NCBI GenBank assembly: GCA_016223005.1
Contig: JACRPW010000013.1
Span: 1,337-40,267 of the forward strand
Origin: Deltaproteobacteria bacterium
Lineage (GTDB): Bacteria > Desulfobacterota > GWC2-55-46 > UBA9637 > GWC2-42-11
Direction: 5' to 3'
Length of the DNA stretch: 38,931 bases
Below, in pieces: positions 9,291 through 16,837 of this stretch. The notes below the pieces were generated by a model. It was given only the letters and a program-made list of their open reading frames with translations, did no database searches and was not told the DNA's origin. Both the position numbers and the translations under genes were made by a program. Every line of letters begins with the position of its first letter. Position 1 is the first letter of the stretch.

Positions 9291-10829
9291 TTACCACTTG
9301 CCGCTTTCAGTATTCTTAATGCCATTAAATCCATAGCACTTGAATATACTGAACTCTCTTGCCTTACTACCTCTATAAATTCTAATCAGCGGTTCTTTTT
9401 CACAACTTAAAAAAACTGCAGAAATCCTTTGGTCAAGTCCTGCATCGCCATTTTTAACATATACCGCATTTTTACCTTTATTGGTATCAAAATCCTGCCA
9501 GATGTCATATTGGTTCATCCTTCTGCCGAGGTTCACATTGTAAGTGACAGGATTGCCATCCACATAAAATGCAAGTTCACTTGCAATCTGATAACTGTCG
9601 CTGAATATGAATACATCACCGTCTTTATGCATCTCATTATATACAACTCCAACCTTTCTACCAAGTTCCTCCCAACCAACCAGTCTGTTTGCAGGGTCAT
9701 TGTTTATATTTACTATATTAAGGACTCTGGTATCATGGGCAATAATTGTTATAATGCCTCCTGTTATCAGTGCAATGGCCAGGAAAATACGAAGCCAGAC
9801 TCTTGACTCTTGACTCTTGACTCTTGACTCTATAACACCGCCTGCAGCAATGAATGCTGTAAAATATGCAGGCGCTGCCCAGTTTGCCTGAACCTTTGCA
9901 TGAATACTCTTTGAAAGGAAAAAGAAAAGAATTGGTGCAGACATTAAAAAAAGGAGAAGGGCATCCCTATCACCATTTTTAAAACCCTTGCCCCCCATCT
10001 TCCAGATGCCATAACATAACCCGATAAATATAAAAGGGGTTATTACACCAAATTGCGAACCAACAAACCCTGCAAAATCCTTTAAAGAAATCTTCAAACC
10101 ATCTGATATGTGTGCCTGCCCTAAGGTATGCCTTACAGTAACCCAGTCATGCTGAATATTCCAGATAATAACAGGACTGAATACAACAATACTAAGGATA
10201 AGGGCAACATAAGGCTCTTTTCTTTTTAACCAGAATCTATCTGTCTTTGAAAGCAATAGAAACAAAAAGATACACGGATATATAAGTGCCATTGTATACT
10301 TTGTTAAAAGTCCAAGTCCAATGATAATGCCGAGAAGATACCAGTAAATGCCGTGATGCGTGATGCGTGATGCGTGATAAGAATTTTCTGACCGCTGTTC
10401 CATCACTCCCCTTCTAAACACATACACTGCCAGACCCCAGAAAAGTATAAACGGCGCATCTATTGTCATAAGAACTGCACCTGCTGAATAAAGCGGGGTT
10501 AATGCAGGCAGAATAGCAGCATAAAATCCTGCCCTCTCGCTTTTAAATATATCCCTTGTCAAAACAAACAAAAGGAGGCTTACAAATATAGAGATTAAGA
10601 CCGCTCCGAGCCTGACAGAAAACTCATTATTACCGCCAATTGCTGTAAAAAAGGCTATCAGGTAGGCAATCACAGGACCCTTGCTGTAGTAACTTAAATC
10701 AAGCCTTCTTGACCATTCCCAGTAGTGTGCCTCATCAGGCGAAAGGTCAAGGGGACCCAGCCATATATAGATAAGGCGAAAAATTGTGATAGAGGTTAAA
10801 TAGATTATGAAATATTTTCTGTATTGCAA
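9291..10829 (-). CDS. ArnT/PMT-family polyprenyl-phosphate-sugar glycosyltransferase
   Basis: This 512-residue multi-pass membrane enzyme belongs to the PMT/ArnT superfamily. It has the first-loop acidic motif DEAHYWEWS, then LSYYSKGPVIAYLIAF, typical of ArnT and related PMT_2 transferases, and many hydrophobic segments. It would transfer a sugar from a polyprenyl phosphate to an acceptor at the outer face of the inner membrane, plausibly lipid A or core given the neighbours. Two in-frame heptamer arrays interrupt the protein: residues about 151-160 (HASRITHH) and about 333-344 (ESRVKSQESRV). Both are hydrophilic, consistent with loops. The start overlaps the end of the PAP2 gene by 25 bases. 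Confidence 0.88.
   Translation of the reverse strand: MQYRKYFIIYLTSITIFRLIYIWLGPLDLSPDEAHYWEWSRRLDLSYYSKGPVIAYLIAFFTAIGGNNEFSVRLGAVLISIFVSLLLFVLTRDIFKSERAGFYAAILPALTPLYSAGAVLMTIDAPFILFWGLAVYVFRRGVMEQRSENSYHASRITHHGIYWYLLGIIIGLGLLTKYTMALIYPCIFLFLLLSKTDRFWLKRKEPYVALILSIVVFSPVIIWNIQHDWVTVRHTLGQAHISDGLKISLKDFAGFVGSQFGVITPFIFIGLCYGIWKMGGKGFKNGDRDALLLFLMSAPILFFFLSKSIHAKVQANWAAPAYFTAFIAAGGVIESRVKSQESRVWLRIFLAIALITGGIITIIAHDTRVLNIVNINNDPANRLVGWEELGRKVGVVYNEMHKDGDVFIFSDSYQIASELAFYVDGNPVTYNVNLGRRMNQYDIWQDFDTNKGKNAVYVKNGDAGLDQRISAVFLSCEKEPLIRIYRGSKAREFSIFKCYGFNGIKNTESGKW
9798..9832. repeat. heptamer array, 5 units, in frame in the ArnT-like gene
   Basis: Four exact units GACTCTT and a fifth GACTCTA on the plus strand. 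Three units (21 nt) equal seven codons, so the peptide repeats every seven residues. Total 35 nt. Confidence 0.92.
10352..10379. repeat. heptamer array, 4 units, in frame in the ArnT-like gene
   Basis: Three exact units CGTGATG and a fourth CGTGATA. The unit is related to the one in the intergenic array at 12449-12526. Confidence 0.9.
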
Positions 10830-11380
10830 CTGGTTTTATCCCTCCATCTCGCAATAATCCATCTCTCTGTAATTATTATGACACTACTTATTATCAATCC
10901 TAAAAAAATCCCGCCTAACACATCCATTGGATAATGCACACCAACATATATCCGTGAGTACGCAACAAGAAACGCAATAATTAAAAATATAGGAGATAAC
11001 CTGCGATAATGATATGAAAGGTATGTCATTACTGCAAAGATATTTGCTGCATGGTTTGACGGGAATGAATATGAAGCACCGCACCCAACAAGAAGCCTTA
11101 TATCAGTAAGGACAGTACATGGTCTTGGACGATGGAAAATATGTTTCATTAGTCCTGCTGTCTGGTCGCTTATCAGTATCACCAATAAAATTACAAGTGC
11201 AATCCTTTTGCCCTTACTCCCTGTCAGCATGAATATTGCAAACCAACTGATTATGATGAGCCATAAAAAATTTGTCTTATTAGTAATAAAAGGCATTACA
11301 GCATCAAGGAAGGGATTTATTAAAACCCCGTTCAGGAGATAAAATAATGCTGTGTCCCATTTCAGTATAGTGTCTAACAA
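10805..11380 (-). CDS. PAP2 family membrane phosphatase
   Basis: This 191-residue protein has about five hydrophobic segments and the three PAP2 phosphatase motifs: KHIFHRPRP, SFPSNHAAN (PSNH in place of the common PSGH), and SRIYVGVHYPMD with catalytic histidine. Substrates of such enzymes include undecaprenyl pyrophosphate, phosphatidylglycerol phosphate and lipid A phosphates. Its place between heptosyltransferase and ArnT-like genes suggests lipid A or polyprenyl pyrophosphate, but the sequence does not decide. It overlaps the preceding heptosyltransferase stop by 7 bases and the ArnT-like start by 25, which implies translational coupling. Confidence 0.9.
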   Translation of the reverse strand: MLDTILKWDTALFYLLNGVLINPFLDAVMPFITNKTNFLWLIIISWFAIFMLTGSKGKRIALVILLVILISDQTAGLMKHIFHRPRPCTVLTDIRLLVGCGASYSFPSNHAANIFAVMTYLSYHYRRLSPIFLIIAFLVAYSRIYVGVHYPMDVLGGIFLGLIISSVIIITERWIIARWRDKTSCNTENIS

Positions 11381-12432
11381 GTGATTTCCCTTTCGCTACC
11401 TGCCACTGCATTTAACTGCCTTTCCACTGCTGTCATCACATCCTCTACCTTAATCTCTTTCATGCATCTTACATCCCTGCACCTTCTTAAAAAACACGGA
11501 CTGCACGGAAGGTCTTTCCTGATAATTGTATGTCCGCTACCGTATGGTCCTGTCCTCCATGGCGCGGTAGGACCAAAGAGTGCTATAACAGGTTTGCCAA
11601 TGGCAGCAGCAATATGCATTGGGCCTGAATCAACTGTTATCATAAGTTTTGAATAATTTATTACTGCCATCAGTTCCTTCAAACCAGTTTTGCCGGTAAG
11701 ATTTATTGTCTTTCTATTTGTCATTGCAATAATCTTATCTATTTCGCTAACTATTAAGCCTGAACCTGTTAAGACCACCCTCATATCAAATTTATCTGTT
11801 ATCAGATTGCAGAGAGAGGCAAACCTTTCATTTCCCCATAGTTTGGTCTCCCATCTCGCTATCGGGTTTACCAGAATAAAGGGCTGTCCTTCCAATATCC
11901 CATTTTCCTTGATGATAGACAGGGCCTTTTGCTTTTCGTCCTGTTTTATGGACAATGGGAATTCAACAGGAAGAACATCTACTCCAATATGTTCTGCAAG
12001 TTGCAGATACCTGTCAACAGCGTGCAGGTCAGGGTTATAAGGCGGCAGCGCCTCATTTAAGAAAATACTGCTTAACTCTCTCCTCCGTCTGAACCCCATC
12101 CTCTTTTTACCTTTTGATAGTAATGCCCATATGCCGCTCTTTATCAGCCCCTGAAAATCTATTACAATATCGTAATTCGTATTCTTCAAGGTCTTTATAA
12201 CACGCGATATATCTCTCCATGTATCATTAGATAATGGTTTCTTAAGCCACTTTTTCCGTCTTACAACTATACAGTCGTTTAGCAGATTATGTCCTATGAT
12301 AATCCCTGCGGCATCTTCCTCAACAAGCCAGTCAATAACTGCGTCAGAATACATGCGTCTGATTGCACAAAGTGACGGGAGCGTATGAATAACATCACCG
12401 ATTGAGGAAAGTTTTATGATTAGTATTTTCAT
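11374..12432 (-). CDS. waaC: glycosyltransferase family 9, heptosyltransferase I-like (WaaC)
   Basis: This 352-residue GT9 enzyme would add heptose to the LPS inner core in the cytoplasm. Family features: N-terminal KLSSIGDVIHTLPSL (the conserved Asp of GT9), VIDFQGLIKSG, and the C-terminal donor-binding region TVDSGPMHIAAAIGKPVIALFGPTAPWRTGP. The C-terminal CSPC with a further C-R-C-containing segment is common in GT9 proteins. The SSIGDV and FQGL motifs favour WaaC over WaaF. The neighbouring fused WaaF-GmhB supplies the second transferase and a phosphatase for heptose synthesis. Confidence 0.87.
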   Translation of the reverse strand: MKILIIKLSSIGDVIHTLPSLCAIRRMYSDAVIDWLVEEDAAGIIIGHNLLNDCIVVRRKKWLKKPLSNDTWRDISRVIKTLKNTNYDIVIDFQGLIKSGIWALLSKGKKRMGFRRRRELSSIFLNEALPPYNPDLHAVDRYLQLAEHIGVDVLPVEFPLSIKQDEKQKALSIIKENGILEGQPFILVNPIARWETKLWGNERFASLCNLITDKFDMRVVLTGSGLIVSEIDKIIAMTNRKTINLTGKTGLKELMAVINYSKLMITVDSGPMHIAAAIGKPVIALFGPTAPWRTGPYGSGHTIIRKDLPCSPCFLRRCRDVRCMKEIKVEDVMTAVERQLNAVAGSEREITC

Positions 12433-12448
12433 AGTAAATACCGTTATT

Positions 12449-12526
12449 CGTGCGCGTTATACGTGATGCGGAAAGAAAGTCGTGATGCATGAAAATACGT
12501 ATAACGCATCACGCACACGCATCACG
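12449..12526. repeat. heptamer array with inverted arms between the two heptosyltransferase genes
   Basis: Units related to CGTGATG appear at 12461-12487, and the reverse orientation (CGCATCA CGCACACG CATCACG) runs to 12526. ACGTATAACGC near 12497-12507 pairs with GCGTTATACGT at 12454-12464, giving a hairpin interrupted by an extra heptamer. The last codons and TGA stop (12509-12511) of the WaaF-GmhB gene are inside the array. Confidence 0.75.
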
Positions 12527-14137
12527 GTCTTTTATTATCCACTCCACCGCATCCTTTAAATCATTTGCAATATAAGATGGTTTTGTTTTAATTATCTTTT
12601 TATGTTCTTTACCAAAGCCTGTTAGAACAAGCACACCTTTACAACCAGCATTTAGCGCCAGTTCAATATCAGAAACCTTATCACCCACAACATAGGATTT
12701 ACTAATATCTATACCCAATTCCTCTCCTGCTATTTCTAAAAGTCCTGTTCTTGGTTTTCTGCACTTACAGTTATCATCAGGATGATGGGGACAGTAATAT
12801 ATACCGTCAAGATGCACATCTTCCTGCTTGAGAGTATCCTCAAGTTTTTTATTTATAGAATCAGCAATTTCCTTTGAAAAATATCCCCTTCCAACACCTG
12901 ACTGGTTGCTGATTACAACAACCTTAAAACCCTCTGAATTTAGTTTCTTTATAGCAGATGGTGCGCCATCAATAATTACCAGCCTATCAGGCGAATCAAT
13001 ATAGCCTGAATCCTCGTTGATGGTACCGTCCCGGTCAAGGAAGACTGCAAAAGAGTTTAGAGTTAGGAGTTTAGAGTTAGGAGTTAAAAAACCTGCGGCA
13101 GCATCATAAACATCATCAACGGTAACATCCCCCATACACTTATAATGTCCGAACCTGCACTGCCTGTCAAAACACGGACTGCACTCAATATCCTCCTTAA
13201 GAACCAAAACCCTGTTGCCTATGGGTGCAGTAAGTTTAGGCTCAGTTGAACCAAATATTGCTGCTGTTGGAACACCAAGGCTCGCTGATATGTGCATTGG
13301 CCCGCTGTCATTTGTAATGAAAAGATCACACCTCTTAATAATTGATATGAACTGACGAAGACTTGTTTTTCCGCAGAGGTTTATCACATTAGTTTTGAGT
13401 TTTGAGTTTTGAGTTTTGAGTTTTTGAATAACCTCTTTGCAAATGTTTTCATCCCCTTTTGAACCGAATATAATAACCTGTGCATCACATTCTTTAATCA
13501 ATCTTTCCGCAATTTCTGCAAACCTTTCAGGAAACCATCTTTTCGCCTTCCCATAACTTGACCCGGGGTTTACACCAATAATCCTGTCAGAAACTATACC
13601 ATTTTCCTCTAAAAATGTCTTTGCCCACATTACATCTTCGTCTGAAAGATACAGTTTTGGCTTTAAATCTTTGTCAATATTTAAACCAATCTCTTCCAGC
13701 AGGTTCATATAATAAAAGACCTGATGACACTTTTTTATATCTCCCCTGACCTTTACAGATTTTGTAAGCAGAAATCCCCTTGCATCAGTTGAATATCCCC
13801 ATCTTTCAGGTATTCCAGCCGTAAATGTAATAAATGCAGCGTCAAAGGCATTCTGAAAGAGTATCGCAAGGTCATATCCCTCTTTTTTCAATCTTTTGAT
13901 TAGTTTAATTTTTCCTAAGAACCCTTTATGGGACCCATCGCAGTCATATTCCATACATCTGTCCACTGATGGATTATTGAAGAACAATGGTGCAACCCAT
14001 GGTCTCGCAAGGACTGTTATATCTGCATGGGGAAGGTTGTTTCTGACTACCTTAATAGACGGCTCACACAAAACTGCATCGCCAATCCAGTTTGGAACCC
14101 TTATAACTATTTTTTCTATCTTATTATTATACATCAT
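12509..14137 (-). CDS. fused heptosyltransferase II (WaaF-like) and heptose bisphosphate phosphatase (GmhB)
   Basis: This 542-residue protein joins two LPS heptose enzymes. Residues about 1-348 are a GT9 heptosyltransferase II-like domain (VRVPNWIGDAVLCEPS-type start, NPGSSYGKAKRWF, TNDSGPMHISASLGVP, FGSTEP). Residues about 363-542 are D-glycero-D-manno-heptose-1,7-bisphosphate 7-phosphatase: HAD motif FLDRDGTIN, SNQSGVGRGYF, the zinc-binding CPHHPDDNCKCRKP, and VGDKVSDIELA. The linker (about 351-362, TPNSKLLTLNS) is encoded by five tandem heptamers, and another array encodes residues about 238-249. The stop also lies in a heptamer array. Both enzymes act in the same pathway, so the fusion is functionally sensible. 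No frame break separates the halves. Confidence 0.9.
   Translation of the reverse strand: MMYNNKIEKIVIRVPNWIGDAVLCEPSIKVVRNNLPHADITVLARPWVAPLFFNNPSVDRCMEYDCDGSHKGFLGKIKLIKRLKKEGYDLAILFQNAFDAAFITFTAGIPERWGYSTDARGFLLTKSVKVRGDIKKCHQVFYYMNLLEEIGLNIDKDLKPKLYLSDEDVMWAKTFLEENGIVSDRIIGVNPGSSYGKAKRWFPERFAEIAERLIKECDAQVIIFGSKGDENICKEVIQKLKTQNSKLKTNVINLCGKTSLRQFISIIKRCDLFITNDSGPMHISASLGVPTAAIFGSTEPKLTAPIGNRVLVLKEDIECSPCFDRQCRFGHYKCMGDVTVDDVYDAAAGFLTPNSKLLTLNSFAVFLDRDGTINEDSGYIDSPDRLVIIDGAPSAIKKLNSEGFKVVVISNQSGVGRGYFSKEIADSINKKLEDTLKQEDVHLDGIYYCPHHPDDNCKCRKPRTGLLEIAGEELGIDISKSYVVGDKVSDIELALNAGCKGVLVLTGFGKEHKKIIKTKPSYIANDLKDAVEWIIKDRDACA
13053..13087. repeat. heptamer array encoding the WaaF-GmhB linker
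   Basis: Five units on the plus strand: GAGTTTA, GAGTTAG, GAGTTTA, GAGTTAG, GAGTTAA. They fall exactly between the GT9 domain and the HAD phosphatase domain. Confidence 0.92.
13391..13425. repeat. heptamer array inside the WaaF domain
   Basis: Four exact units AGTTTTG and one AGTTTTT. They encode LKTQNSKLKTN between the IQK helix and the NVINLCGKTS strand of the GT9 domain, a likely surface loop. Confidence 0.92.
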
Positions 14138-16098: not shown

Positions 16099-16837
16099 TT
16101 ATTCCTGAATTTCGCTTAAAGAGAATAGTTCATCATCGACATTTCCATTAACTTCAACCTTTGTGTATCTGATATTCAGATGCATTCGGTCGGTTTTTAC
16201 ATCTACAAACATTGGAAATCTAGTGCCGTTAATTTCTATATAATCATCAAAAAAAATTGTAACAATACTGTTATTATCCCTGTTATAGACCTCTCTTCTG
16301 ATAATGGTATACTCTTTAGGATTAAACCACACCTTGTGGTATGCACCCTCATCATAATACAGGAGTCTTATGATAACAGCATCTAACTGACCAGCCAATG
16401 ATATAAAGGGGGATATACTTTAGGTCTTGCAATGGAAAGTAGCCTGGCAAGGCAGTGCCTTTATATATCTTCCCCGAATAATAAAATTGATACCCCTGAC
16501 CATTATTTACAATTACTGCTGATGGTTGATTTAAGGGATTTAAAAACTCTATCCTGAAGGAATGGGGGGATTTTGCAGCAATCACTACCCTGCTCGTGTG
16601 CAAAAGTCCGCCTGATATTATCTCCAGACTGCCAACCCCCTTAAATGTATTGATTGGTTTTAGTTCCCTGACACGGGAAAATATCTGAAGACTATCTAAC
16701 TGGGGATCTGAAGAGGAAACCTTTTGCTTTACAGCACAGCCTGTAAAAAACAGAATACAGAATACAGAATACAGCATACAGAATAAAACCCTCTCTCTCC
16801 TGACCCCTCTCTCCCGTCTCCCGCACCCCTGCTTCAT
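16099..16837 (-). pseudogene. outer-membrane-type lipoprotein (DUF4292/LolB-like), frameshifted
   Basis: Two overlapping reading frames (start 16837, and continuation ending 16099) together make one lipoprotein of about 245 residues. The first frame carries the signal peptide and lipobox FTGC, then TFKGVGSLEI and SFRIEFLNPLNQP, which resemble the DUF4292/LolB-like lipoprotein fold. It goes out of frame at the run of five G (C on the coding strand) at 16408-16412. One extra base there would restore PPFISLAGQLDAVIIR and join the second frame (FNPKEYTIIRREVY, GTRFPMFVDV). ATG 16837 overlaps the TPR gene stop as TAATG, so coupled translation is likely; ATG 16777 is an alternative. Most of the signal peptide is encoded by heptamers. 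Whether the break is real or a sequencing error cannot be told here. Confidence 0.75.
16750..16784. repeat. heptamer array encoding a lipoprotein signal peptide core
   Basis: Units ACAGAAT, ACAGAAT, ACAGAAT, ACAGCAT, ACAGAAT on the plus strand encode the hydrophobic part CMLYSVFCILF of the signal peptide. A degenerate C/T-rich 7-nt pattern continues to about 16832 and encodes the basic n-region. Confidence 0.9.

Follow-up and report, generated by a model that had tools for sequence, protein, structure and literature searches.

Short tandem repeats in bacteria are usually regarded as intergenic sequence or as phase switches. Among the closest described systems are the heptameric simple-sequence repeats of cyanobacteria and Xanthomonas and the TAACTGA repeats of Beggiatoaceae, which form dispersed arrays of a few heptamers (PMC4692102, PMC4679880), and MacGregor foresaw that repeats could be tolerated between the subunits of modular proteins (PMC4679880). 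A study of Geobacter metallireducens describes 49 elements of four heptamers (GGACCGG) that lie within and between genes (PMC2700814), and the Rickettsia palindromic elements (RPEs; Ogata 2000/2002), according to a review, insert in frame into unrelated metabolic genes (PMC10969869).

We analysed a window of 38,931 nucleotides from an uncultured Deltaproteobacteria bacterium (assembly GCA_016223005.1, contig JACRPW010000013.1; genome G000 below). Judged from the sequence, it probably encodes a single bifunctional LPS-heptose enzyme in which two operon neighbours, waaF and gmhB, have been fused, with a heptamer repeat of a genome-wide class as the joint (Table 1). Like the heptamers of cyanobacteria, Xanthomonas and Beggiatoaceae, the arrays in the order of this bacterium are dispersed, phylogenetically patchy and, against other periods and shuffles, numerous in each genome (PMC4692102, PMC4679880). 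The former, however, comprise one or a few unit types and are mostly intergenic, whereas in the order 92 distinct canonical units are found among 167 arrays, mostly in ORFs, and the fixed unit of STRR-like repeats is lacking. In a Beggiatoaceae genome, 25 ORFs contain or overlap arrays, mainly at protein ends; in the order, many arrays are found in signal peptides or at domain junctions in the protein interior. The Geobacter elements also place heptamers inside genes as well as between them, but they have a single fixed consensus and are read as regulatory RNA, and no link to fusions or signal peptides was found in the passages on them (PMC2700814). RPEs likewise are in frame and palindromic in structure; as the review describes them, they form families of about 150 bp with conserved sequence and peptide (PMC10969869), whereas the arrays here conserve the 7-base period and not the sequence, units and peptides both varying between arrays.

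An earlier note on this DNA had placed two enzymes of LPS heptose metabolism in one frame, and this is borne out by an intact ORF of 542 aa. Its WaaF part matches TIGR02195 over the full length (E 1.4e-71; 241.4 bits, curated cut-off 134.6), and so does its GmhB part NF006506 (E 2.5e-59; 199.8 bits, curated cut-off 178). The WaaF domain aligned along its length to the WaaF structure PDB 1psw (9.3e-38) and the GmhB domain to the solved enzyme PDB 2gmw (6.1e-37); in the latter alignment the GmhB motifs DRDGT, NQSG, the CxH...CxC zinc ligands, RKP and GDxxSD are kept. No second GmhB match was found in the G000 genome, and the fusion is its sole one. Both activities in the fused chain are predictions from these conserved motifs and domains. 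An AlphaFold2 model of the fusion has a mean pLDDT of 94.5 with both domains confident; values below 50 occur only at residues 355-360, inside the heptamer linker, and the tether is therefore predicted to be flexible. From where WaaF ends to the catalytic motif of GmhB, inspection of the sequence found no in-frame ATG, GTG or TTG, the nearest in-frame start upstream of the motif being the ATG in KCMGDV, within the WaaF domain. The gmhB start and ribosome site of relatives (e.g. AAGGAATTTGCAAATG in G009) are gone from the G000 fusion. Because no GmhB start codon is left between the domains, GmhB is obtainable only as part of the fusion.

Table 1. Genes, domains and heptamer arrays at and around the waaF-gmhB locus (positions in the window)
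Feature	Position	Strand	Basis
waaF-gmhB fusion gene, 542 aa	12509..14137	-	intact ORF without internal stop, NCBIfam/Pfam matches, AlphaFold2
WaaF (LPS heptosyltransferase II, GT9) domain, residues 9-349	13091..14113	-	TIGR02195, PDB 1psw
Five heptamers forming the interdomain linker, residues 351-362	13053..13087	-	sequence, TRF, AlphaFold2
GmhB (HAD-IIIA heptose bisphosphate phosphatase) domain, residues 364-537	12527..13048	-	NF006506, PDB 2gmw
In-frame heptamer array (CAAAACT), loop of WaaF domain	13387..13427	-	TRF, alignment
Inverted heptamer repeat (CGTGATG/CGTATAA types), GmhB C-terminus and stop into gmhB-waaC gap	12433..12526	.	TRF, sequence
WaaC, heptosyltransferase I-like gene, downstream	11374..12432	-	TIGR02193 (3.2e-54, 184.3 bits, just under cut-off 185.3)
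In-frame heptamer array, PMT_2 glycosyltransferase gene	9794..9835	-	array scan, Pfam
Second in-frame heptamer array, same PMT_2 glycosyltransferase gene	10349..10382	-	array scan
Heptamer array encoding hydrophobic core of predicted lipoprotein signal peptide (LFCMLYSVFCILFFTGC)	16744..16787	-	sequence

The linker had been described as exactly five tandem heptamers, and it is: the 35 bases GAGTTTA, GAGTTAG, GAGTTTA, GAGTTAG and GAGTTAA, all of the form GAGTTWR, encode LTPNSKLLTLNS and take up the space that separates the two domain matches. TRF reports a perfect 14-mer period (score 66); at period 7 the array is 75% matched (21/28), and for this reason a strict period-7 detector misses it, while detecting the corresponding array of G004 described below. 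Runs of five successive 7-mers sharing their first five bases begin at 5 positions in the window versus 0 in 20 shuffles, and the linker array is not due to chance. The G000 junction rests on one draft assembly of 102 contigs, with one genome per species.

For comparison there were 63 genomes from the class and a sample of 395 from the phylum; the junction DNA of about 39 was inspected. In nearly all relatives inspected, waaF and gmhB are adjacent but separate and have no array at the junction, and the same holds for seven of the nine other order members examined. In G001, G005, G008 and G009 the two genes overlap, the ATG of gmhB being 8 nt inside waaF; from the last conserved codons of waaF to the motif AVFLDRDG of gmhB it is 34 nt there, against 42 in G000 and 45 in G004. 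With gmhB in the +1 frame, the frames are joined only if this spacing changes by 2 mod 3, which is true of +8 (G000) and of +11 (G004). G004, from another family of the order, is fused via five heptamers of its own (ATCCCAC, ATCCAAC, ATCCCAT, ATCCCAT, ATCCTAA). G002, from the same family as G000, has separate genes with a heptamer-like inverted repeat between them and waaF ending inside the repeat; separate genes flanking such an array were what the earlier note had proposed to look for. In a tree of WaaF and GmhB, fused G004 is the sister of unfused G008 (98%) and fused G000 groups with unfused G001 and G002. Because the tree places each beside unfused relatives, the two fusions are independent; a shared ancestry of their linkers was considered and rejected on tree position and on the differing unit sequences. 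That the fusion is derived is supported by the separate genes of the seven order members. Across ten order genomes, fusion is found in two of three with a junction array versus none of seven without (p=0.067), an association that is suggestive only.

The earlier note had named, as an observation against its reading, the same fusion joined by an ordinary linker. Such fusions exist in the more distant genomes G045, G295 and G315, which share the domain order of G000 but have linkers without clear heptamer periodicity and are, by the tree, again of independent origin. They refute a need for heptamers, and their independent origins spare a heptamer-made fusion in G000: heptamers are one route to a WaaF-GmhB fusion, neither required nor the only one. 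The purine-rich linker of G045 might be taken for a heptamer array, but it matches period 7 (17/31) no better than period 5 (19/33) and was rejected as one. A plasmid search with the junction DNA gave no match, and a scan of genome contigs returned distant GmhB relatives only, which are uninformative on the junction.

To place the linker among the repeats of the order, sampled stretches of 18 genomes, ten of them order members, were surveyed, and the genome-wide counts are accordingly samples. The ten order genomes yielded the 167 period-7 arrays. G000 has 63 in 493 kb, against 0 in shuffles and 0-4 at other periods, and order samples of at least 20 kb contain about 6-24 per 100 kb. At any other period between 5 and 11 the ten members gave 0-5 arrays per genome; period 8 was the only other one with repeated matches, at 0-5 per genome sample in several order genomes. 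Outside the order, seven of eight samples contained no period-7 array, and G014, from the same class, has one in 7 kb. By position, 106 of the 167 arrays lie inside ORFs, 17 at ORF edges and 44 in intergenic DNA; since ORFs make up about 90% of the sequence, coding DNA is still, per base, the poorer in arrays. An inverted partner lies within 100 nt of 68 of the 167, versus 8 in the control. Because the period is 7, an array has the same seven codons in every frame, and a stop-free array is therefore open wherever it is placed. Selection of units for openness is unsupported, 32% being stop-free on both strands versus 37% of random heptamers.

Conserved enzymes with internal arrays include TsaD, SelA, QueC, PEP carboxylase, LpxB, CarA, CobQ, HisIE, ValS, Mfd and GlnE. 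In a comparison made without statistics, arrays lie at domain boundaries in HisI/HisE, CobQ, CarA, SelA, ValS and a GH57 enzyme. One site in the CobQ linker reads ERSQESGVRSQEK in G000, DRSQKSEVRSQK in G007, EQGQGSRVKGQGK in G009 and KISDFGFRISDLKSQ in G004, and KdtA, BioC and PMT likewise have arrays of different units at orthologous sites in relatives; in PMT, G001 has an array of the ACATCCC type at the site of the second G000 array. HisIE is fused in its orthologues and only some of these have linker arrays, so that arrays can invade existing linkers. Since arrays are commonly in frame at interdomain linkers, in loops and in signal peptides, a heptamer array that ends up as a linker is nothing out of the ordinary in the order. 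We tentatively suggest, at somewhat less than an even chance, that the arrays are a standing source of new coding sequence from which linkers and signal peptides are made, the waaF-gmhB fusion being one product; arrays would then remain at one site for long while the sequence of their units changes.

Signal peptides offer a further coding use. As a first estimate, with ORF starts taken mechanically, 25 of the arrays inside ORFs are no more than 105 nt from the ORF start, versus 10.7 expected (p=4e-5), and hydrophobic peptides are encoded by 8 of these 25 versus 5 of 81 internal arrays (p=0.002, from the same mechanically taken starts). In LptA of G004 (MRQCKRGKRQEARGKRQEASFFLASCFLLLVSTCFVFAED) an inverted pair of arrays encodes a basic and then a hydrophobic part, and the BamA N-termini of G004, G006, G003 and G009 are partly or largely 7-periodic with differing units. 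Such inverted pairs may be ready-made signal peptides, with the forward arm predicted to give the basic n-region and the reverse arm the hydrophobic core (BamA, LptA and a multicopper oxidase of G004). Pairs at gene starts that encode a basic and then a hydrophobic stretch, together an entire predicted signal peptide, were seen at L072:3929-4010, L075:3809-3942, L075:4381-4466, L141:9665-9751 and L082:17780-17883; the proteins concerned are LptA, the multicopper oxidase and BamA of G004, a Vgb-lyase-like protein (G001) and ORF L075:3648-4373. BamA signal peptides differ wholly between genera of the order, the remainder of the protein being 55-86% identical.

The window holds several other heptamer arrays. 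The one in the WaaF loop, absent from the earlier note, makes the gene about 7 codons (21 nt, three heptamers) longer than that of G002, by alignment. At about the same loop, in the middle of the gene, waaF of G007 (L113) carries a non-heptamer insertion with an inverted repeat in the DNA, and the loop may be a tolerated site for differing repeats. The GmhB stop codon (12509-12511) does lie in another array, as had been claimed: the degenerate array 12504-12526 found by TRF is one arm of the inverted repeat that fills the gap before waaC. Heptamer repeats, mostly inverted, occur in the gap after gmhB in all five genomes inspected (G000, G001, G002, G004 and G009), some units being common to G000 and G001 and others to G002 and G004; they are possibly a terminator or a spacer. 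The hydrophobic core of the predicted lipoprotein signal peptide is encoded by a unit that reads ATTCTGT on the coding strand, in an ORF (16352-16837, minus strand) for which no Pfam match was found. This gene may be broken or split, since ORF 16099-16398 (minus strand) comes next.

How might the junction have formed? In the ancestor, waaF and gmhB would have been adjacent or overlapping by a few bases, with gmhB in the +1 frame and both its ribosome site and its start codon within the last part of waaF, as in relatives. A heptamer array would then have taken hold between the two, either inserted or replacing sequence, by a molecular route that is conjectural although its outcome is visible; the stop of waaF and the start of gmhB would have been lost with it, and the frame would have moved by 2 mod 3 (net +8 nt). 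The product would be one chain with two folded enzymes and, in the AlphaFold2 prediction, a flexible tether of about 12 residues; the fusion was presumably tolerated, as a neutral change, rather than specially selected. The earlier note had pictured an intergenic array that became coding when the stop was lost, repeat growth creating the fusion. Much of this stands, namely a derived fusion joined by heptamers, with a second case in G004 and, in G002, separate genes with a repeat; less secure are the intergenic array and the repeat growth, the latter being indistinguishable from direct insertion or replacement. Because the presumed ancestral junction is an 8-nt overlap without intergenic room for an array, stop loss is neither the sole nor clearly the simplest history, and insertion or replacement accounts for the junction equally well. 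A stepwise course, in which an array between separate genes later became a linker through stop loss, seems on balance rather unlikely. It has in its favour that G002, of the same family, shows just such an unfused junction repeat, but G001, as near to G000 as G002 on the tree, has the overlap and no array, which would require a loss in G001 or two gains; moreover, the units differ, and the single-arm array of G000 is unlike the two-arm element of G002. Less probable again is a fusion made with an ordinary linker that an array invaded afterwards. HisIE, with heptamers in the linkers of only some fused orthologues, offers an apparent parallel, and ordinary-linker WaaF-GmhB fusions occur elsewhere, but no fused array-free relative was found among the members of the order examined, and two events would be needed where one is enough.

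Two further explanations are phase variation and artefact. LPS genes are classic contingency loci, and gain or loss of one heptamer could toggle between the WaaF-GmhB fusion and WaaF alone, altering LPS heptose. Heptanucleotide contingency loci exist, at neuO (PMC13001214) and HMW (PMC8262952). Seven is not a multiple of 3, and by computed frame effect 355 codons stay open after a change of -1 or +1 unit and 362 after one of -2 or +2, reading stopping short of GmhB in either case; with -3 or +3 heptamers the fusion stays in frame. We nevertheless consider a phase switch improbable: the array has only five units, which alternate over 14 bases and are not identical, arrays at orthologous sites are kept in frame across genera, and similar arrays occur in housekeeping genes (TsaD, CarA, ValS, BamA), where switching off would be lethal or costly. 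Tandem repeats can be mis-assembled, and the genome is a draft; however, 35 bp is below ordinary read length, the frame is intact on both sides, and the independent genome G004 has the same architecture with other units, which makes an assembly or sequencing artefact extremely improbable.

Dispersed heptamers (PMC4692102, PMC4679880, PMC2700814) and the in-frame insertion of repeats in Rickettsia (PMC10969869) are already known. As far as the literature searched shows, the unit diversity, the majority inside ORFs and the persistence at orthologous sites are new, as are the recruitment into signal peptides and the joining of operon genes by arrays in two independent fusions. In that search, mainly of freely accessible papers, we found neither WaaF-GmhB fusions named as such nor work in which gene fusions are tied to tandem heptamers.

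Operon neighbours are often fused, but one can rarely see in the sequence what joined them. In this order it can be seen in two independent cases, through the same class of repeat with different units. The order shows short repeats as long-lived, in-frame raw material for the linkers and signal peptides of conserved proteins, and repeat-driven protein evolution thereby becomes directly testable.
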